DNA from: Deltaproteobacteria bacterium
GTDB lineage: Bacteria > Myxococcota_A > UBA9160 > SZUA-336
Assembly: GCA_016875225.1 (NCBI GenBank)
Contig: VGRW01000039.1
Span: forward strand, 1-32,929
Length of the DNA stretch: 32,929 bases
Direction: 5' to 3'
The notes under the pieces are model-generated. The model worked only from the letters and a program-made list of their open reading frames with translations, did not search any database and was not told the DNA's origin. The stretch's first letter is position 1, and the number at the start of each line of letters is the position of its first letter. A program made the position numbers and the translations under genes. This document shows positions 13,400-27,293 of this stretch, piece after piece.

Positions 13400-15850
<2,451 letters not shown>

Positions 15851-15856
15851 CCCCTG

Positions 15857-15885
15857 TTTGTACCGCCGCCGCGGCGCGACTCCAA
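15857..15885 (-). promoter_or_regulatory. Candidate sigma-70-type promoter for priA operon
   Basis: On the minus strand TTGGAG (15880-15885) and TACAAA (15857-15862) are separated by 17 nt. The -10 ends 6 nt before the priA ATG, so initiation would give an essentially leaderless mRNA. Hexamer matches are partial (3/6 and 4/6); spacing and the lack of a Shine-Dalgarno are the support. Confidence 0.4.
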
Positions 15886-15932
15886 GCGCCGGTCCCTTGC
15901 CCGGCTCCCCGGCGCGCCCTACCTGAAGGGCG

Positions 15933-16853
15933 ATGCGCGACATCACCGTCGTCGGCAGCCTGAACATCGACATCTCCGTGCGCGTGCCCCGCTTCGTGCG
16001 GCCGGGCGAGACGCTGCGCGCCACCGGCCTGCTGCTCGGCGCAGGCGGCAAAGGCGTGAACCAGGCGATCGCCGCCGCGCGCCTGGGCGGTCGCGTGCAC
16101 CTGGTCGGCTGCGTGGGCGACGACGAGTTCGCCGCGATTCCGCTTCGCGCGCTGGCCGAAGCGGGCGTGGACGCGACGCACGTCGCGACGCTCGCCGGCC
16201 AGCGCACCGGCACCGCGCTGATCACCGTCGACGAGGCGACCGGCCAGAACCAGATCGCCGTCGACGCGGGTGCGAACCGAAGCGTGCGCCCGGAGCACGT
16301 GCGCGACGCGGTGCCGGCGTTCCGCGCGTCCGCCGTGCTGCTGGTGCAGCTCGAGCTCCCGCCCGAGACGGTCGAGACCGCGCTCTGGCTCGCGCGCGCG
16401 AACCACGTGCGAACCGTGCTCGACCCCGCGCCCGCGCGCGATCTCGCCGACGGCACGCTCGCGCTGGTCGACGTGCTCACGCCCAACGAGAGCGAGGCCG
16501 AGGCGCTCACGGGAATCGCGATCGGCAGCGTCGAATCCGCCGCGCAGGCCGGCGCGCGGCTGCAGGCGCGAACCGGCGGCGACGTGGTGGTGAAGCTCGG
16601 CGAGCAGGGCTGCGTCTGGGTTCACGCGACCGGCTTCGAGCACGTCGCCGCGCCGCGTGTCCGCGCGCTCGACACCACCGGCGCGGGCGACGCGTTCAAC
16701 GGCGGGCTCGCGCTCGCGCTCGCGCGGGGCGAGCCGCTCTCTGCCGCGCTTCGCGAGGCCGTGCGCGCGGGCGCCGCCGCGACGCTGCGCCGCGGCGCGG
16801 CTGCCGCCATGCCCACCCCCGCCGACCTCTTGGCGCTGCCGGAAGCGCGCTAG
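15933..16853 (+). CDS. rbsK: Ribokinase (PfkB-family sugar kinase)
   Basis: This PfkB-family kinase of 306 residues most likely phosphorylates D-ribose to ribose-5-phosphate. Visible features are [22 protein letters not shown], the sugar-binding [37 protein letters not shown] and the anion-hole/catalytic-base motif [17 protein letters not shown]. The GGKGVNQA form favours ribokinase over fructo- or adenosine kinases, though other sugars or nucleosides remain possible. GAAGGG lies just upstream of the ATG. No ribose transporter is nearby. The bufferin precursor gene follows after 37 nt on the same strand, so read-through into it is likely even if functionally unrelated. It is divergent from priA. 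Confidence 0.9.
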
Positions 16854-16890
16854 ACTCGGGCACCGCTCTCGAAGAACGGAGGTCACCGCC

Positions 16891-17163
16891 ATGGACAAGT
16901 CCCGCTCGCTCGCCGCCACCGCCCTCACCACGCTGATCGGCCTCTCCGTCGGCCAGATCGCCGAAGCCGCCAGCGCCCAGGCGTCGTCGGGAAACGAGAA
17001 GTGCTACGGCGTGGTGAAGAAGGGCCAGAACGACTGCGGCACCGCGAATCACGGCTGCAGCAAGCAGGCGAGCCAGGACGCCGACCCGAACGAGTGGGTC
17101 TACCTGCCCAAGGGCAGCTGCGAGAAGATCGTCGGTGGCAGCCTCGCGCCCAAGGACAAGTAG
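16891..17163 (+). CDS. bufA: Bufferin-type RiPP precursor (BufA1/DUF2282 family)
   Basis: A 90-residue exported precursor. A signal peptide covers about 1-29 ([25 protein letters not shown]). The mature part has four Cys at 38, 49, 56 and 77 in the family pattern [30 protein letters not shown]. In characterised bufferins an MNIO enzyme turns the central Cys residues into thiooxazole groups and the peptide binds copper outside the cytoplasm. By that analogy Cys49 and Cys56 are the likely modified sites and Cys38/Cys77 a disulfide. The ATG has GGAGG 8 nt upstream, better than most genes here, as expected for an abundant peptide. It is followed directly by the MNIO and partner genes. The longer open frame upstream belongs to another frame of rbsK and is not used. 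Confidence 0.88.
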
Positions 17164-18004
17164 CGCCGCCTCGTCGCTCCCGCGCGCCTGCGGGCTCGGC
17201 CTGCGCGCGCCGCACTACGACGCGATCCTGGCCGGCGCGCCCGACGTCCCGTTCTTCGAGGTGCTGGCCGAGAACCACACCACCCTCGGCGACCCCGCGC
17301 GCGAGATCCTGACGCGCGTCCGCGAGCGCTGGCCGGTGACGCTTCACTGTGTCGGCATGTCGCTCGGCTCGACCGACCCGCTCGATTTCGAGCACCTGGG
17401 CCGGCTGCGCGAGCTCGAGCACCGGCTCGAGCCCGCGCTCGTCTCCGACCACCTGTCTTGGTCGTCGCTGGACGGCCGCTTCCTGCACGACCTTCTGCCG
17501 CTGCCCTACCTGGAGGAGTCGATCGCGCACGTCTCCGCGCGCATCGCGCGCGTGCAGGATTTCCTCGGCCGCCGGATCGCGATCGAGAACGTGTCTAGCT
17601 ACGCGACCTTCGCCGAGTCCGAGCTGGCCGAGTGGGAGTTCCTGTCCGCCGTCGCCGAGCGCGCCGACTGCTCGATCCTGCTCGACGTGAACAACGTGCA
17701 CGTCTCGGCGGTGAATCACGGCTTCTCGGCCGAGACCTACCTGGACGCGCTCCCGCGCGAGCGCGTGGCGCAGCTGCACATCGCCGGGTTCTCGCGCGGC
17801 CGCGAGCTGCTGCTCGATTCGCACGGCGCCGCGATCGACCCGGCCGTCTGGCGCCTGCTCGAGCTCGCGCTCGAGCGGTTCGGCGCACTCCCGTTCGTAC
17901 TCGAGCGCGACCGCAACATCCCGCCGCTCTCCGAGCTGCTCGACGAGGCGAAGAAGGCGAGCGCGCTGATCGCGCGGCGAGTGACTCGCGATGATCTGGA
18001 GTGA
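17135..18004 (+). CDS. bufB: MNIO-family (DUF692) bufferin-modifying multinuclear iron oxidase
   Basis: A TIM-barrel enzyme of 289 residues with the expected metal ligands: H27 (RAPHYDAIL), E46/N47, H71 (LHCVGMSLG), D105/H106 (VSDHLSW), E151/N152 (ENVSSYATF), D184 and N187 ([15 protein letters not shown]), H215 (QLHIAG), D228/H230 (DSHGAAID) and E257 near NIPPL. This is the MNIO family that converts Cys of RiPP precursors to heterocycles; here the substrate is the bufA product just upstream. No ATG exists. The only in-frame start before the conserved GLGLRAPHY is the GTG at 17135, which lies inside bufA, giving a 29-nt overlap and probable translational coupling. It ends in GTGA, touching bufC. 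Confidence 0.9.
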
Positions 18005-18009
18005 CTTCC

Positions 18010-18726
18010 ATGCTGCGTGAGCTGCAGCGCCGCTTCGTGCGCGACATGCTCGCGGGCGAGTCATGGGTGCACCCGTACCGAGAGAACCTGCTCTGCGGCC
18101 ACGCCGAGGCGCTCGAATCGCTGTACCCCGTGTGCCGCCGCCTGGTCGGCGACGAGTTCTTCCGCGCCGCCGCCCGCCGCTTCGCTCTCGGTCATCCCGC
18201 TTCCTCGCCCGATCTGAACGACTACGGCGCCGAGCTGGCCGACTTCTTCGCCGGCTTCGAGCCCGCGCGCGCCCTGCCCTACCTGCCCGACGTCGCGCGC
18301 TTGGAGCGGGCGCTGCACCGCGCGCTGCTCGCGCCGGTTCCGCCGAGGGTCGACCTCGCGGCGCTCGCGCAGGTGCCCGAGGCGCGCCGCGGCCAGGTGC
18401 GCTTCGCGCTCGCGCCCGGCGTCGCGCTGCTCGAGTCCCGCTACCCCGCCGACCGGATCTGGCTCACCAACCAGCCCGGCTACACCGGCGAGGATCGCGT
18501 CGACCTGTCCGAGGGCGGCGTGCGGCTGGCCGTCTGGTTCACGCCGGACGGCGAGCCCGCGCTCGAGCGGCTCGTCCCGGCCGAGCTCCAGCTGCTCGCC
18601 GGCTTCGAGCGCGGACTCACGCTCGACGACGCGTGCGCGTCCTGGCCAGGCACGAGTCAGGAGCTGGCCGGATTCCTCGCCCGAGCGGTGCAGCGCGGGT
18701 GGATCGGGTCGGCGCGGGTCGGGTGA
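18010..18726 (+). CDS. bufC: MNIO partner protein (DUF2063, BufC/HvfC-like)
   Basis: The 238-residue protein has the conserved N-terminal domain LRELQRRFVRDMLAG, YRENLLCGHAEALESLYPVCRRLVGDEFF, FALGHPASSPDLNDYGAELADFF and LPYLPDVARLERALH. This domain, once called putative DNA-binding, is the substrate-presenting partner that works with the DUF692 enzyme. The C-terminal part (DRIWLTNQPGYTGEDRVDL onwards) resembles the RRE-like half of such partners. I chose the ATG at 18010 because GGAG lies 8 nt upstream; a GTG at 18001 overlaps the bufB stop as GTGA but has no site. No DoxX-like bufD follows; the next gene is convergent. Confidence 0.88.
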   Translation: MLRELQRRFVRDMLAGESWVHPYRENLLCGHAEALESLYPVCRRLVGDEFFRAAARRFALGHPASSPDLNDYGAELADFFAGFEPARALPYLPDVARLERALHRALLAPVPPRVDLAALAQVPEARRGQVRFALAPGVALLESRYPADRIWLTNQPGYTGEDRVDLSEGGVRLAVWFTPDGEPALERLVPAELQLLAGFERGLTLDDACASWPGTSQELAGFLARAVQRGWIGSARVG

Positions 18727-18744
18727 GCCGCGATTGGATCGCGG

Positions 18745-18785
18745 CGAACCAGCGCGGCGTGCGGTCCGCGCCGCGGAATGGTTCG
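18745..18785. terminator. Long GC-rich hairpin between convergent genes
   Basis: CGAACCA (18745-18751) pairs with TGGTTCG (18779-18785). Inside it CGCGGCG pairs with CGCCGCG around a 9-nt loop. It starts 18 nt after the bufC stop. There is no U-tract in either direction, so it may be a Rho-assisted end, an RNA 3' stabiliser or a bidirectional stop. Confidence 0.4.
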
Positions 18786-18820
18786 GTCTCACCTCCGCGG
18801 AGCGAGCCTCCGCGGAGACC
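18785..18820. repeat. Second hairpin with two copies of a 10-bp palindrome
   Basis: CTCCGCGGAG occurs twice (18793-18802 and 18808-18817), inside an outer GGTCT/AGACC pair. The structure directly abuts the previous hairpin and lies before the stop of the convergent PPOX gene. It is probably a terminator element for that gene or both. Confidence 0.4.
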
Positions 18821-18853
18821 GCGGGGATTCAGACCGCGTCCGAACGCCGGCGC

Positions 18854-19411
18854 CTACGGCCGGTCGGTTGCGTTCCACGCCATCGCTCCCGTGATCCAGT
18901 GGGTGATCTCCTCCTGCTGGTCGTTCCTGTGCAGGTGGCGGGGCGGCTGCGCGAAGGTCTCGTAGGGGCGACACCGCAGGACGACGCGGCCCTCCTTCTC
19001 CGCCATCGCCTGCACCACCGGCCGAGCCTCCGCGGGCAGCGGTTTCCCCGACATGCGGCCGCCGACAGCCATCATGACGTCGACCACCAGCGCGGGATCG
19101 GTCTCCAGCCGCGCGTCGCAGTAGACCTGCAGGTACGCGAAGGGCCAGCGCTCGTCGAGAATGCAGAGGCTGATCTTTCCCGAGCGCGCCACTGCCTTCG
19201 CCTTGGCCCGGCCTCCCATCGTGGAGACGAGGAGCTCGTCGCCGTCGGTCGGCACGTAGTAGACCACCGACATCGCCGGCCCGTCGGAGCGCCGCTCGTA
19301 ACCGAAGATGCAGGTGCGGTGCGTGCGGACGAACTCGCGGCGCTCGGATGGGAGCATGTCGCGGTCGGTCGGAGCGGTGAACGGGGCGGGCGAGAGCGGG
19401 AGGATGCGCAT
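18854..19411 (-). CDS. PPOX-fold flavin/F420-dependent oxidoreductase
   Basis: The 185-residue protein belongs to the pyridoxamine-5'-phosphate-oxidase-like split-barrel family. It begins MLPSERREFVRTHRTCIFGYERR after a short leader, then MSVVYYVPTDGDELLVSTMGGRAKAKAVARSGKISLCIL and WPFAYLQVYCDARLE. That order is typical of the PPOX class in which the strand-turn GGRAKAKA contacts the cofactor phosphate. The family includes FMN- and F420-dependent reductases; the cofactor cannot be told here. AGAGGAG lies 7 nt upstream of the ATG. It is divergent from a TetR gene across a dyad operator, so it is probably the regulated target. Confidence 0.8.
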   Translation of the reverse strand: MRILPLSPAPFTAPTDRDMLPSERREFVRTHRTCIFGYERRSDGPAMSVVYYVPTDGDELLVSTMGGRAKAKAVARSGKISLCILDERWPFAYLQVYCDARLETDPALVVDVMMAVGGRMSGKPLPAEARPVVQAMAEKEGRVVLRCRPYETFAQPPRHLHRNDQQEEITHWITGAMAWNATDRP

Positions 19412-19429
19412 CGAGTTCTCCTCTACAAG

Positions 19430-19456
19430 AGTCTTGTTATCGATCGATAATAGACT
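19430..19456. promoter_or_regulatory. TetR-type dyad operator
   Basis: The central TTATCGATCGATAA (19437-19450) is a perfect 14-bp palindrome, flanked by AGTCT (19430-19434) and AGACT (19452-19456) as outer arms, with a 1-nt asymmetry. It lies in the 56-nt gap between the divergent TetR and PPOX genes and overlaps the candidate promoter. It is strikingly AT-rich for this genome. It is very likely the autoregulatory site of the TetR protein. Confidence 0.8.
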
Positions 19457-19461
19457 ATGCT
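19434..19461 (+). promoter_or_regulatory. Candidate promoter of tetR, leaderless
   Basis: TTGTTA (19434-19439) and TATGCT (19456-19461) are spaced by 16 nt, each matching 4 of 6 consensus bases. The tetR ATG follows 6 nt after the -10 with no Shine-Dalgarno, so the message would be leaderless. The operator occupies the spacer, fitting repression by steric block. Confidence 0.5.
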
Positions 19462-19467
19462 CGCCCG

Positions 19468-20124
19468 ATGGGTCAAGCGCAGAAGCGCCGTCGTCGGCTG
19501 CGCCGATCGCGCGGGGACATCCGCGAGCGCTTGCTCGACGCCGCCCTCGTGGAGTTCGGAGCGAAGGGGTTCGACGGCGCCTCGACGCGCGCCATCGCCG
19601 AGCGCATCGACGCCCACCAGCCTCAGATCCACTACCACTTCGAATCGAAGGAGGCGCTCTGGAGAGCGGCGGTGGATCACCTCTTCGCGGAGCTCGGTCG
19701 CGCCATGGAGGGGCTCGACTTCGGAGCGGATCCGGCCCGGACCACCGCGATCGATACGCTCGCGGACGGGTTCGCCGAGCTGATCCGGCGCTTCGTGCGT
19801 TTCGCGGCTGCAAGGCCCGAGCTGAACCAGATCATGCTGCACGAGGCAACCGCCAGGAGCGCGAGGCTTCGCTGGATGACCGACCGGCACGTTCGGCCGC
19901 TCTACGACGCCGTACGCGTGCTCTGGCGCCGCCTGCGCGAGGCGGGGATCGCCGCGCCCATCGACGATGCGATGTTTCATTACGTGTTGGTGGGCGCCGC
20001 GTCACTCCCCTACGTGAACGCTCCGGAGGTGCGCCTGCTGACGAAAGCGGAGCCGACTGACCCCTCCTGGGTGGAGAGGCATGCGGACGGGCTCGTCGCG
20101 ACCTTCCTGCCGAATCGAAGCTGA
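19468..20124 (+). CDS. TetR-family transcriptional regulator
   Basis: The protein has 218 residues. The N-terminal helix-turn-helix is typical: IRERLLDAALVEFGAKGFDGASTRAIAERIDAHQPQIHYHF, followed by ESKEALWRAAVDHLF. It is preceded by a very basic tail (KRRRRLRRSRG). The C-terminal ligand domain is helical, with RPELNQIMLHEATARSARLRWM, like TetR proteins of catabolic loci; its ligand is unknown. There is no ribosome binding site at the ATG, consistent with a leaderless mRNA. The divergent PPOX gene and the downstream phosphotriesterase-like gene (80 nt after, same strand) are the likely regulon. Confidence 0.9.
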   Translation: MGQAQKRRRRLRRSRGDIRERLLDAALVEFGAKGFDGASTRAIAERIDAHQPQIHYHFESKEALWRAAVDHLFAELGRAMEGLDFGADPARTTAIDTLADGFAELIRRFVRFAAARPELNQIMLHEATARSARLRWMTDRHVRPLYDAVRVLWRRLREAGIAAPIDDAMFHYVLVGAASLPYVNAPEVRLLTKAEPTDPSWVERHADGLVATFLPNRS

Positions 20125-20203
20125 TCTCCGGGGAGAGCTACCGACTCCGCGTCTCGGCGGAGCCGCAGCGCTTGCGCGCGCCCCCGTGCGACAATCGCTG
20201 CCG

Positions 20204-21310
20204 ATGAGCCAGCTCGACCCGAAGGTGATGACCGTGCGTGGACCCGTGGCGCCGGAAGCGCTCGGCCTCACGTCGCTGCACGAGCACATCCTGTGCGATC
20301 TGTCCGCGTGCTACCGCGATCGGTTCCGGAAGATCCTGCCGGCCGAGATGGAGATGCCGGACGGGCCGTTCGAGATCGGGGAGCGCTCGACGCTGCGGCA
20401 CGCGATGCTGCTGTCGAGCAGCAACCTTCGGCTGGACGACGAGAAGGTGATGACGGCCGAGGTCGCGGACTTCGCGGCGGCGGGCGGGGGCGCGATCGTC
20501 GAGACCGGCTCGCCGGGGATCCGCACCGGCCAGGACGTGCGCGCGTTCGCGCGCATCTCGCAGGCGACCGGCGTGCACATCGTGGCGTGCACGGGGCTGT
20601 ACGCGGAGGACAGCTGGCCGGAGCGCTTCCGGGGTTTGTCGGAAGCGCAGTACGCGGACTACCTGCGCGGCGAGATCGCGAGCGGGATCGACGGCTCGGG
20701 AATCCTGCCGGGCCAGATCAAGGTCGCGTACGAGGGACGAAGCGCCGACGCGGACGCGTACCTGCGCGCGGCGGCGCGCGTCTCGCGCGAGTCGGGGCTC
20801 TCGCTGCAGGTGCACGTGGGCTTGCTTCAGTCGAACCCCGAGCTGCGCGAGTCGTTCCTGCCGCTCCTGTACGGGAGCGAGTGCGTGCCGGAGCGGACGG
20901 TGATCTGCCACGTCGAGAACTGGCTGGGGTCGCTGCCCCTGCAACAGATCGTGCTCGAGCCACGGCTTGCGGCGCAGGACTTGACGTTACACCGCGAGGT
21001 GTTGGACCGCGGCTTCCACGTCTGCTTCACCTGCATCGGCGCGGAGTGGGACCTGGAGGAGCTCGGCTTCGCGCACCGGCCCGACTGGTTCTACCTGGCG
21101 GGACTGGTGGCGCTGATCCGCGAGGGCTACGCGGACCAGCTCACGATCGGACACGACGTGTTCACCAAGCTCTGCACGCGCCGCGGCGGCGGCGAGGGCT
21201 ACACGCGGATCCCCCGCTTCGTGCTGCCCCTGCTCGGACGCTGCGGGGTGTCCGACGCGGATGTCCGCAAGCTCACGGTCGAGAATCCGGCGCGGCTTCT
21301 GGCGCAGTGA
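20204..21310 (+). CDS. Phosphotriesterase-family metal-dependent hydrolase
   Basis: A binuclear-metal TIM-barrel hydrolase of 368 residues. The family metal ligands are visible: H26 and H28 in SLHEHIL, bridging K173 in GQIKVAYEG, H204 in LQVHVG, H236 in VICHVEN, and an Asp in LTIGHDVFTK near residue 313. Length and motif order fit phosphotriesterase-related proteins and lactonases, which hydrolyse esters or lactones; the natural substrate is unknown. The segment between the HxH motif and the bridging Lys contains an extra acidic stretch (ILPAEMEMPDGPFEIGE). The start is the ATG at 20204, though one at 20228 is possible; neither has a clear ribosome binding site. It lies 80 nt after tetR and may be under its control. 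Confidence 0.82.
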   Translation: MSQLDPKVMTVRGPVAPEALGLTSLHEHILCDLSACYRDRFRKILPAEMEMPDGPFEIGERSTLRHAMLLSSSNLRLDDEKVMTAEVADFAAAGGGAIVETGSPGIRTGQDVRAFARISQATGVHIVACTGLYAEDSWPERFRGLSEAQYADYLRGEIASGIDGSGILPGQIKVAYEGRSADADAYLRAAARVSRESGLSLQVHVGLLQSNPELRESFLPLLYGSECVPERTVICHVENWLGSLPLQQIVLEPRLAAQDLTLHREVLDRGFHVCFTCIGAEWDLEELGFAHRPDWFYLAGLVALIREGYADQLTIGHDVFTKLCTRRGGGEGYTRIPRFVLPLLGRCGVSDADVRKLTVENPARLLAQ

Positions 21311-21313
21311 GTC

Positions 21314-23755
21314 GTGCGAAGCCTCGGTCACAGGCTCGCCCTCGCCGCGCTGCTCCTGGCCATGCTCGGGCCGGAGACCGCGCTCGCGGCGGTCGACAAG
21401 TGCGGCGCGGATCGGGCCAAGGCTCTCGGCAAGCACGCGGCCGCGGGGCTCGATTGCCACTCACGCGCGGCTGGATCCGGCGCAGCCGTAGACACCGCGT
21501 GCCTGGCGAAGGCGCAGACGCGACTCGCCGACGCGTTCGCGAAGCTCGAAGCCAAAGGCTGCACGCCAGGCGACGCTTTTGACGGAGCGGAGAGCGCTGC
21601 CGAGTTCTGGAAGGCCGCCGCCGCACGGCTCCGCACGGGGGCGGGCGCGGCCGATTCCTGCGCCGCGGCCAAGCTGCGCGGCGCGGGGCGGCACGCGCGC
21701 GACGCGTTCGAGTGTCACGCGAAGGCGCTGAGTAGAGACTTGCCGCGCGACGCCGCGTGCTTCGCGCGCGCGCGCCAGCGCTTCCACGCCGAGCTCGCCC
21801 GCGCCGAGCGGCGAGGCGGCTGCCTCACGCTCGACGACGGCGCGCCGCTCGAGCGCGAAGCCGACGCGCACGTGGCTCGCGCGCTCGACCTCGCGCTCTG
21901 CGCCGACCTGGTCGAGGACGACGTGCCCGGCGCCTGGAGCGCGAGCGCCGTCGGCGGCTACCCGACCGAGCTCTCCGCGCTCGCGCCCGACGACGCGCTG
22001 GTGGGAAGCGCTGCGCTGCGCGCCGAGACGACCGCGCTCTTCGGCTGGACGCTGCGCCACGCCGCGCCCGGGCCGCTCGACGTCTCGGAGGGAATCGCGA
22101 GCGAGCTGCGCTTCGCGGTTCGCGCCGAGAACACCAACACACCGACCTGGCAGGGAAGCTGGCCGGCGCTCACCCTCGAAGACGCGTTCGGGCGGCGGCG
22201 GCGCTACGAGCCGACCGCCCCGCGGCTTCCCGACGACGGCTTCCTCTGGCGCCCGATCTCGGTGCCGCTGGACGGAGGCGCGGGCTGGACTACGAGCGGC
22301 GACGAGAGCTTCGACCGCACGGCCGTGGCCGCGGTCGAGCTCGAGGCCGACACCTGGGGCGCAGGATTCCGGATCGAGCTCGATGGGCTCGCCGCGGTCG
22401 GGCCGACCTGCCGCGCGCCGTGTGACTGCGGCGCGCACGGGAGCTGCGGCGAGTCACTCGCCTGCGAGTGCGACCTGGGCTACTCGGGCGCGCGCTGCGA
22501 CGAGTGCGCGTACGGCTGGGGCGAGGGTCCGGGCGACACCTGCGCGCTCGAGAGCGACGGCGGAGCCACGGTCTGGCCCAACGCCTACGCGCCCGCGAAC
22601 TCGAGCCCGTGGCTCGCCGCGCACCACGACGACGTCGTGCGCCTCGAGCCGACGGTGCTGGTGCTGAACTTCGTGAACCCGAGCTCGCCGGGCGCGGTGC
22701 GGACGCTGGTCGACGGCGTGATCGCGGGGCTCGCGGAGGGATCGCGCGAGCGCGGCGACGAGATCCCGGGCGCGACCCCGCAGCTCGAGTACCGCATCTT
22801 CGGCGACGCGGTGATCGATCTTCGCGACGGCGTCGAAGGGCGCGATCCCGCGCCGCCCGGCTGGCCGTACCAGAACTCGACGCTCTACCCGCGCCGGCCG
22901 GACGGCGAGCCCGGCGCCTGGCGCTTCGACTACGCGGAGCTCTTCGACCAGGACTTCGCCGAGCACTACGGAGTGATCGATCCGAACGACCCGGGCCGCT
23001 ACCTCGAGCTCTGCGAGCTGGCCGAGCGCGGGCTGGTGCACGACGTCTGGGTGGTCGGCTCGGGCGATGTCCCGGACGCGGGCGCGGCCGAGGTCCTCGA
23101 ATCCAAGCCTCTTTACGATTCGGCGGGAAACCGCGTGGGCGAGGGCTTCGACCGCTGCGCGGGAAACGGCTGCTTCGATCTGGACGTGCCGGTCTGCGGC
23201 GTGAGCCTGCGCGTCGGATTCGTGAACTACAGCCGAGGCCCCGGCTGCTACATCCACTCACAGGCGCACGGGATCGAGTCGACTGCCGCGCGCGCGGTCA
23301 CGCCGGGACTCACGGCGTGGTTCGACCGCTTCGCGGGATTCGATCTGGACACGCGCTGGGGTCTGCCGCTGCCGAGCCTGTACGGGGTGTCCTGTCCGTC
23401 GCCGCCGTGCATCGAGCACCCGACGCCGTCGTCGCTCGCGCTTCAGACGTACGACGGCGCGCACGAGCGCGATCCGTTCGACGCGGTCTGCGGCAACGTG
23501 CACTTCCCGCCGAACGCCGAGTCGGGCTACGACTACGCGAACCCCGACGCCGTGCTCTCGAGCTGCCGCGGCTTCGGGACGACGGGCGAGCGCGCGCCCG
23601 TCTCGGCGCAGGACTGGAGCGCGTACTCGGACTACGGCGACTGCGGCGGCGAGTTCCTGGTCTGGTGGATGCAGCGAATGCCCGGCGCCTCGGGCACGCG
23701 CGCTTTCGGCGACGGCCGTCCCATGCGCTCGGTCTGGCCGTACCTGTTCTACTGA
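21314..23755 (+). CDS. Large secreted Cys-rich protein with duplicated 4-Cys modules and laminin-type EGF domain
   Basis: The 813-residue protein has a signal peptide (1-25, ALAALLLAMLGPETALA). Two N-terminal modules follow with Cys at 30/48/63/83 and 116/134/149/170, spacings 18-15-20 and 18-15-21, each with a CH motif at the second Cys. A beta-rich region leads to an eight-Cys laminin-type EGF domain at 370-410 (C370, 372, 378, 384, 386, 395, 398, 410). The C-terminal 400 residues (from VLVLNFVNPSSPGAV) have more Cys and motifs such as YIHSQAHGIES and CGNVHFPPNAESGYDYANP. I do not recognise that domain; it has a conserved, enzyme-like look but I cannot name an activity. It is probably extracellular or surface-attached. 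The start is GTG at 21314, 3 nt after the hydrolase stop and without a strong site, so coupled translation is likely. Confidence 0.7.
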   Translation: MRSLGHRLALAALLLAMLGPETALAAVDKCGADRAKALGKHAAAGLDCHSRAAGSGAAVDTACLAKAQTRLADAFAKLEAKGCTPGDAFDGAESAAEFWKAAAARLRTGAGAADSCAAAKLRGAGRHARDAFECHAKALSRDLPRDAACFARARQRFHAELARAERRGGCLTLDDGAPLEREADAHVARALDLALCADLVEDDVPGAWSASAVGGYPTELSALAPDDALVGSAALRAETTALFGWTLRHAAPGPLDVSEGIASELRFAVRAENTNTPTWQGSWPALTLEDAFGRRRRYEPTAPRLPDDGFLWRPISVPLDGGAGWTTSGDESFDRTAVAAVELEADTWGAGFRIELDGLAAVGPTCRAPCDCGAHGSCGESLACECDLGYSGARCDECAYGWGEGPGDTCALESDGGATVWPNAYAPANSSPWLAAHHDDVVRLEPTVLVLNFVNPSSPGAVRTLVDGVIAGLAEGSRERGDEIPGATPQLEYRIFGDAVIDLRDGVEGRDPAPPGWPYQNSTLYPRRPDGEPGAWRFDYAELFDQDFAEHYGVIDPNDPGRYLELCELAERGLVHDVWVVGSGDVPDAGAAEVLESKPLYDSAGNRVGEGFDRCAGNGCFDLDVPVCGVSLRVGFVNYSRGPGCYIHSQAHGIESTAARAVTPGLTAWFDRFAGFDLDTRWGLPLPSLYGVSCPSPPCIEHPTPSSLALQTYDGAHERDPFDAVCGNVHFPPNAESGYDYANPDAVLSSCRGFGTTGERAPVSAQDWSAYSDYGDCGGEFLVWWMQRMPGASGTRAFGDGRPMRSVWPYLFY

Positions 23756-23762
23756 CCCGGCA

Positions 23763-24251
23763 CTACGAGCCGTCGGCGCGCCAGGTCAGCACCTCGCCGC
23801 CGCGGCCGAGCAGCACGCTGCCCGGGAACACGCGCAGCCGCCACGGCTCGAGGCGAAGCGCGGCGAAGCTCGCGTCGGTGGGCTTGGTCCAGCCGGGGAT
23901 GATGGCGGGGTCGTAGCCGACCGGCGCGGGCGCGTCGCGGAACAGGTTCCAGACGCGCGTTCGCGTCTCGTCGTCGAACGCCCACTCGGCGCGGCACTCG
24001 GCCAGACAGGTGTCCTGCGTGGTCGCCCAGTAGTTGAGCGAGAGATACGGGCTCTGCGCCAGGTGCGCCCGCTTCAGCGGCGTGGGGCCGGTGGCGATCC
24101 AGCCCGAGAGCTTTGCTCCGTCCCAGACCCAGATCGGGTGCAGCACGCGCGAGCGCGGGCGGCCGCGGCGATCGACCGTCGCCGCGCTGCACCAGACGAT
24201 GCGATGGGCCATCTCGACGAAGGCCGGGCCGATCTTTGCAAGCTCCGTCAT
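23763..24251 (-). CDS. PPOX-fold (pyridoxamine-5'-phosphate-oxidase-like) protein
   Basis: The 162-residue split-barrel protein includes IVWCSAATVDRRGRPRSRVLHPIWVWDG, LSGWIATGPTPLKRAHLAQSPYLSLNYW and a C-terminal FFP-like LRVFPGSVLLGRGG. Together these fit the FMN-binding pyridoxamine oxidase-like family; the exact reaction is unknown. A GGAG site lies about 7 nt upstream of the ATG. It converges on the secreted-protein gene with only 7 nt between stops, and is divergent from the amidohydrolase (53 nt), suggesting shared regulation with the latter. It is a second, distinct PPOX protein in this neighbourhood, not a copy of the one at 18854. Confidence 0.8.
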   Translation of the reverse strand: MTELAKIGPAFVEMAHRIVWCSAATVDRRGRPRSRVLHPIWVWDGAKLSGWIATGPTPLKRAHLAQSPYLSLNYWATTQDTCLAECRAEWAFDDETRTRVWNLFRDAPAPVGYDPAIIPGWTKPTDASFAALRLEPWRLRVFPGSVLLGRGGEVLTWRADGS

Positions 24252-24304
24252 GCGCAGCTCCTTTCGAGGTCCGAAGCGAGAGCATACTCGGGTACTCTCT
24301 CGCG

Positions 24305-25330
24305 ATGGGCTCCGCGCTGGCCGAGAACGAGACGTTCCGCTTCGACCGACTCGAGGACCTGGCGCGGCTGCCCTGGTTCGACGTGGACGGCGATCGGCTG
24401 GTGGTCTCGGACGCCTCGGTCGGGCCGATCATCGACATGCACGCGCACTACGCGCTGCCGGCGATCTGGCCGCTGCGCTTCGACCTGGAGCGCGAGAGCG
24501 AGCGCACGGAGCTGCTGCTGCCCTGCTGCAGCCGCCACGACCTGGACGTCTACGCCAATCACAACTTCGGCGCGCTAGGCGTGAAGCAGCTGAAATCCGA
24601 GCTCGTGCTCGGCGGCGCGCTCGGCATCGGCAAGCGCTGGACGCACACCGCGCCCAACCGGGCGCGCGACTGCCGCGACATGGGCATCGTGCACAGCGCG
24701 ATCCTCGCGATCGACATCGGCCTGCCGAGCCGCCACGTCGCGGACTCGATCGCGGCCGCGAAGGCGCGAAGCTCGACCACGCCGTTCGGGAGCGTGCACC
24801 CGCGCCGACGTCGCCCGCGCGAGAAGCTCGAGGAGCAGCTCCACGCGGGCGCGCGCGGGCTGAAGCTGCACCCGCAGCTGCAGAAGTTCCTTCCCGGTGC
24901 GGACGAGGCGATGCCGCTGTACGCGCTCGCCGCGGCCGAGCGCATTCCGGTGCTCTGGCACTGCGGGCCGGTCGGGATCGAGCTCGCGTCCGCGCGCAAG
25001 TTCGTGCAGGTGCCGAGCTACGAGCGGCCGCTGGCCGAGTGTCCCGACACCACCTTCGTGCTCGGCCACGCGGGCGCGCTCGACTCCGACCTGGGCCTCG
25101 AGCTGCAGCTCCGCCACGCGAACGCGGTGCTCGAGGTCTCGTGCATCAGCCTCTCGCAGCTGCGCCGCGTGATCGATCGCGGCGACCCGGACCGGATCGT
25201 CTACGGCACGGACTGGCCGTTCTACCACCACGCGCTCGCGCTCGCGAAGGTGCTCGTCGCGACGGAAGGCCGGCCGGAGCTGCGCCGCAAGATCCTGCAC
25301 GACAACGCCGCGCGGCTGCTCGGACTGTGA
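24305..25330 (+). CDS. Amidohydrolase-2 family metal-dependent hydrolase/decarboxylase
   Basis: The 341-residue TIM-barrel has the family ligands D44/H46/H48 (IIDMHAHYA), LKLHPQLQKF, LWHCGP, VLGHAGALDSD and the catalytic Asp in YGTDWPFYHH. Such proteins hydrolyse or decarboxylate aromatic acids and lactones; the substrate is unknown. An N-terminal 40 residues (FDRLEDLARLPWFDVDGDRLVVSD) precede the barrel. A HPRRRRPRE segment is unusually basic. It has no Shine-Dalgarno; a CATACT -10-like hexamer (24283-24288) lies 16 nt before the ATG, so the leader would be very short. It is divergent from the PPOX gene. Confidence 0.82.
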   Translation: MGSALAENETFRFDRLEDLARLPWFDVDGDRLVVSDASVGPIIDMHAHYALPAIWPLRFDLERESERTELLLPCCSRHDLDVYANHNFGALGVKQLKSELVLGGALGIGKRWTHTAPNRARDCRDMGIVHSAILAIDIGLPSRHVADSIAAAKARSSTTPFGSVHPRRRRPREKLEEQLHAGARGLKLHPQLQKFLPGADEAMPLYALAAAERIPVLWHCGPVGIELASARKFVQVPSYERPLAECPDTTFVLGHAGALDSDLGLELQLRHANAVLEVSCISLSQLRRVIDRGDPDRIVYGTDWPFYHHALALAKVLVATEGRPELRRKILHDNAARLLGL

Positions 25331-25445
25331 CTCCGCACTGCCGCTGGCGCGTGCGGGCGCAGGCGGTCACCGCCGTCCGTCACTGATCCCGCGCTCGGCG
25401 CGCTCTCCCTCAAGCCGGGCGCGGGTACCGGTCGAAGCCATCGGT

Positions 25446-27289
<1,844 letters not shown>

Positions 27290-27293
<4 letters not shown>

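Follow-up and report, generated by a model that had tools for sequence, protein, structure and literature searches.

The three genes at 16891-18726 of the window (the whole 32,929-nt stretch of DNA analyzed here, with coordinates given on its forward strand) constitute a genuine and ordinary bufferin operon of the known Buf1 type, bufABC. Very probably this compact operon encodes a copper buffer that is exported after conversion of its central cysteines to thiooxazoles, and was inserted at an rbsK junction; it is probably transcribed there by read-through, and an internal GTG codon probably couples synthesis of its enzyme to that of its precursor. This interpretation builds on the gene identities, the cysteines of the precursor, the metal-site motifs of the MNIO enzyme, the partner fold, and the overlap and gene order shared within the genus, with the chemistry, export and copper role taken by analogy from characterized relatives. 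The initial annotation described a minimal system of a precursor, an MNIO enzyme and a DUF2063 partner; all of its coordinates hold (Table 1), and its family assignments are borne out by the DUF2282, DUF692 and DUF2063 model searches that it called for, all three of which were passed.

Table 1. Coordinates of the bufABC operon, its neighborhood in the window, and the Buf2-type locus of the same genome (L033)
Feature	Coordinates	Strand	Evidence and details
rbsK/PfkB sugar kinase, immediately 5' of bufA	15933..16853	+	PF00294, 241.6 bits
GGAGG, likely ribosome-binding site of bufA	16878..16882	+	sequence; 8 nt 5' of ATG
bufA, Buf1-type (DUF2282) bufferin precursor, 90 aa	16891..17163	+	PF10048; ATG 16891, TAG 17163
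bufA/bufB coding overlap, 29 nt	17135..17163	+	start scan
bufB, MNIO enzyme (bufferin maturase), 289 aa	17135..18004	+	NCBIfam MNIO_BufB, PF05114; GTG 17135, TGA 18004
bufC, PME type 1 partner, DUF2063 and C-terminal RRE-like domain	18010..18726	+	PF09836; ATG 18010 (alternative start GTG 18001), TGA 18726
TetR gene, further 3' of the operon	19468-20124
Hybrid histidine kinase gene, further 3' of the operon	25446-27293
Alpha/beta hydrolase, far edge of inserted segment	27290..28120	-	PF00561; synteny
Buf2 locus with promoter-like boxes and convergent ECF sigma/NrsF-like gene pair	L033 2168-2193, 2225-4691, 4691-5365 and 5362-5962
IS91-type transposase gene	L033 74-1993

The BufA precursor matches the DUF2282 model PF10048 with 79.3 bits (cut-off 22.4) and contains four cysteines, Cys38, Cys49, Cys56 and Cys77, all of which are invariant across 14 aligned homologues. 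A 29-residue stretch at its N terminus shows the n-, h- and c-regions of a Sec-type signal peptide when judged by eye; the initial annotation had proposed a signal-bearing precursor with four cysteines. Comparison with a genome of the same genus (G001) revealed fast divergence of bufA, with dN about equal to dS across the whole gene, and conservation of the cysteine-bearing core. Published work on Buf1 bufferins places the modifications on the two central cysteines and a disulphide between the outer pair (PMC12452194), and the proposal that Cys49 and Cys56 are the modification targets agrees with this chemistry. Assignment of BufA to the Buf2 type was rejected, as the protein scores 30 bits against the BufA2 model NF050166 (cut-off 60) and has four cysteines, not six.

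The BufB enzyme passes both NCBIfam NF050167 (MNIO_BufB; 344.8 bits, cut-off 310) and PF05114 (MbnB_TglH_ChrH; 341 bits, cut-off 25). The initial annotation credited BufB with all His, Asp, Asn and Glu ligands expected of an MNIO enzyme; the metal-site motifs (H, DH, EN, LDVNN, H and D-x-H) are kept in the alignment with 3BWW, and residues N175, D242 and H244, reported as essential in HvfB, have evident counterparts in the Asn of LDVNN and in the Asp and His of LDSHG. An oxazolin/HvfABC identity was also considered and discarded: BufB reaches 266 bits against the HvfB cut-off of 360, BufC only 29.8 against the HvfC cut-off of 142, and the EGKCG repeats are absent from bufA. A scan of genome contigs with BufB returned only three distant relatives (45-47% identity). 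In the MNIO tree the enzymes of the window and G001 form a pair (100/98), which is not joined with the Buf1 enzymes of two other family members, G007 and G009.

The partner BufC passes the DUF2063 model PF09836 with 63.7 bits (cut-off 27.2). Although phmmer found no meaningful match among PDB sequences, a search of the PDB with its AlphaFold2 model (pLDDT 92.1) returned NGO1945 (3DEE) and TglI (8HCI, 8HI7) as the only matches with E < 0.001, both of them known MNIO partners. In G001 the BufC protein (L021 6614-7105) has 163 aa only and is without most of the C-terminal RRE-like domain, which raises the possibility of a decaying or altered system in this relative.

According to published work on Buf1 and captophorin systems, BufC presents BufA to BufB, the two central cysteines become 5-thiooxazoles, a disulphide joins the outer ones, and the product binds copper once exported (PMC12452194, PMC13097082). 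By analogy, the BufA protein of the window would be made with its Sec signal peptide and presented in the cytoplasm by BufC, through its DUF2063 and RRE-like domains, to BufB, an iron-dependent oxidase that would convert Cys49 and Cys56 to 5-thiooxazoles. After export, a disulphide would link Cys38 with Cys77, and the mature product would buffer copper in the periplasm. An alternative is that the system buffers zinc, cadmium, chromium or mercury, or responds to redox stress, and it has some precedent, because the earliest work on such operons, in Caulobacter, dealt with them as genes that depend on sigma-F and respond to dichromate and cadmium by induction (PMC3511200), and MerC-bufferin fusions suggest further metals (PMC12452194). 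We regard it as unlikely, given that the characterized Buf1 products bind copper and aid growth under copper stress (PMC12452194, PMC13097082), and that no further metal gene was found directly beside the operon.

The start of bufB lies within bufA, as the initial annotation had noted. Close to where the conserved domain begins, GTG 17135 is the only ATG, GTG or TTG codon in frame with bufB, both in the window and in G001, where the identical GTG start and 29-nt overlap are found. A GAGAAG motif is located 7 nt upstream of this codon at the same spacing in the two genomes. The GTG arises from a GGT glycine codon within the conserved CEKIVGG stretch of bufA; GGT accounts for 6.8% of glycine codons in nearby genes of the window and for none in rbsK and bufB of G001 (priA was left out of this count), and it is present at the bufB start in both genomes, a small sample (n=2). 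The alternative, initiation of BufB elsewhere, for example at a CTG codon 3' of the bufA stop, with the overlap being an effect of ORF calling, draws on the 18 residues that follow the GTG, which fall outside the Pfam domain and diverge between the window and G001, and on the other loci with the A-B gene order, where bufA and bufB are mostly separated by small gaps or share a 4-nt overlap. The absence of any other ATG, GTG or TTG near the domain start and the retention of the rare GGT codon and of the spaced GAGAAG in both genomes make this a rather improbable explanation. We conclude that the GTG inside bufA is the usable start and that it probably couples BufB synthesis to translation of the precursor. 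The operon anatomy is less unusual than the initial annotation held: the GTG start and the 29-nt overlap are real and were seen in this genus only, and the rbsK neighbor can be explained by an insertion at a conserved junction.

This junction was identified by comparison with family members that have no buf genes at the site. In G006 and G009, priA and rbsK are followed by the genes for an alpha/beta hydrolase, an Arf-like GTPase, a Roadblock protein and recR, with a spacing of 8-17 nt between rbsK and the hydrolase gene (matched ends); def adjoins priA in G006, where the contig extends that far, and in G007 the GTPase gene comes after rbsK. In G001, bufABC and one further ORF are located between rbsK and the hydrolase gene, and in the window the same interval contains bufABC and about 8.5 kb more (18727-27289). 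The latter region encodes a PNPOx-like protein, TetR, a phosphotriesterase, an amidohydrolase and a hybrid histidine kinase, and is not found at this junction in G001, G006 or G009. As rbsK directly abuts the hydrolase gene in G006 and G009 and bufABC lies between them in this genus, the gene order indicates that bufABC was most likely inserted behind rbsK in an ancestor of the genus. The rbsK stop codon (16853) is separated from the bufA ATG by 37 nt, as originally reported, and the corresponding gap in G001 is 9 nt; these short distances suggest that rbsK and bufABC are likely co-transcribed, with transcription probably reading through from the rbsK promoter. A functional tie of bufABC to ribose is not indicated.

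Scans for sigma-70-type promoters and intrinsic terminators around the operon found nothing, and boxes of the sigma-F type (GTAACC-N16-CGAA, at most two mismatches) are absent from 15700-16895 of the window and from the matching stretch of G001. With neither a copper-responsive regulator nor a recognizable promoter at the operon, its control by copper is unsupported. The lack of a recognizable dedicated promoter and the shortened BufC of G001 could be taken as signs of a decaying or non-functional operon retained behind rbsK by chance, but this is very improbable, since all three genes of the window are intact, the GTG start and the set of cysteines are kept, and the dN/dS ratio of about 0.5 for bufB (0.29/0.60; window against G001) points to purifying selection.

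Genes for DoxX, an ECF sigma factor and NrsF were not found beside the operon in the window; the DoxX genes of this genome are on contigs C114 and C19, and its sole NrsF-like gene is on C114. The absence of DoxX from the locus had been recorded correctly; its description as unusual could not be upheld. None of the 13 DUF2282-encoding genomes compared (this one plus 12 relatives) has a DoxX gene adjoining the DUF2282 gene, the DoxX matches being on other contigs. At the level of the phylum, bufA-bufB-bufC without a DoxX match occurs in the fetched stretches of G198, G183, G262, G290 and G069, as judged by a single-sequence search that a diverged DoxX could escape. A bufABC operon without DoxX is therefore the rule at the DUF2282 loci examined in this class and also occurs elsewhere in the phylum. 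DoxX is common but not obligatory in Buf1 operons, so its absence is no bar to membership. Two relatives with DUF2282 precursors, G011 (99% complete) and G028 (94%), have no PF05114 or PF09836 matches, and in both of them the precursor gene lies divergent to a Gluconate_2-dh3/GMC oxidoreductase gene pair (L023 4346-7211 and L022 6777-9569). No such pair turned up at the other loci checked.

The same genome has a second, Buf2-type operon on contig C114, doxX-bufA2-bufB2-bufC2, in which doxX is the first gene and the precursor passes the BufA2 model (69.1 bits, cut-off 60). It is convergent with the genes for an ECF sigma factor and an NrsF-like protein, the latter scoring below the model cut-off (21.5 against 26.8 bits), and an IS91-type transposase gene is located just 5' of the operon. 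The exact pattern GTAACC-N16-CGTA, which was picked after viewing both sites so that its count is descriptive, occurs twice in the genome, before doxX and at the start of the sigma factor gene, and its reversed control pattern does not occur. The Caulobacter sigma-F consensus GTAACC-N16-CGAA is close to this box (PMC3511200), and the same layout and boxes in G042 (L074) provide independent support. Sigma/NrsF genes have been reported with Buf1 clusters, not with Buf2 (PMC12452194), and the locus on C114 is an apparent exception to this pattern. A rather unlikely idea is that the genus has rewired its Buf1 operon, read-through from rbsK and GTG-coupled BufB synthesis turning it into a constitutive copper buffer beside the sigma-controlled Buf2. 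The two operons in one genome would allow a test of whether constitutive and inducible bufferins coexist in the same cell.

This work adds one Buf1 operon without DoxX to those known and illustrates how such an operon can slot into a block of housekeeping genes. The founding Buf1 system of Caulobacter vibrioides (PMC12452194) likewise comprises a four-cysteine DUF2282 precursor, with a signal peptide that in BufA of the window is apparent by eye, the MNIO enzyme BufB and a DUF2063-RRE partner BufC, whereas the operon of the window has neither DoxX nor an adjoining ECF sigma/NrsF pair, is located behind rbsK, and has the 29-nt bufA/bufB overlap created by the GTG start. The captophorin cluster fon (fontiphorin) from Fontimonas thermophila (PMC13097082) shares the minimal set of precursor, MNIO enzyme and PME1 partner without DoxX, but its precursor is of the EGKCG-repeat type with seven thiooxazoles, unlike the DUF2282 precursor found here. 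The Buf2 operon of the same genome (L033) is similar in having an apparently Sec-type precursor, an MNIO enzyme and a DUF2063 partner, and differs by its six-cysteine BufA2, the presence of DoxX, and a neighboring ECF sigma/NrsF-like pair, the two units bearing promoter-like boxes that match.
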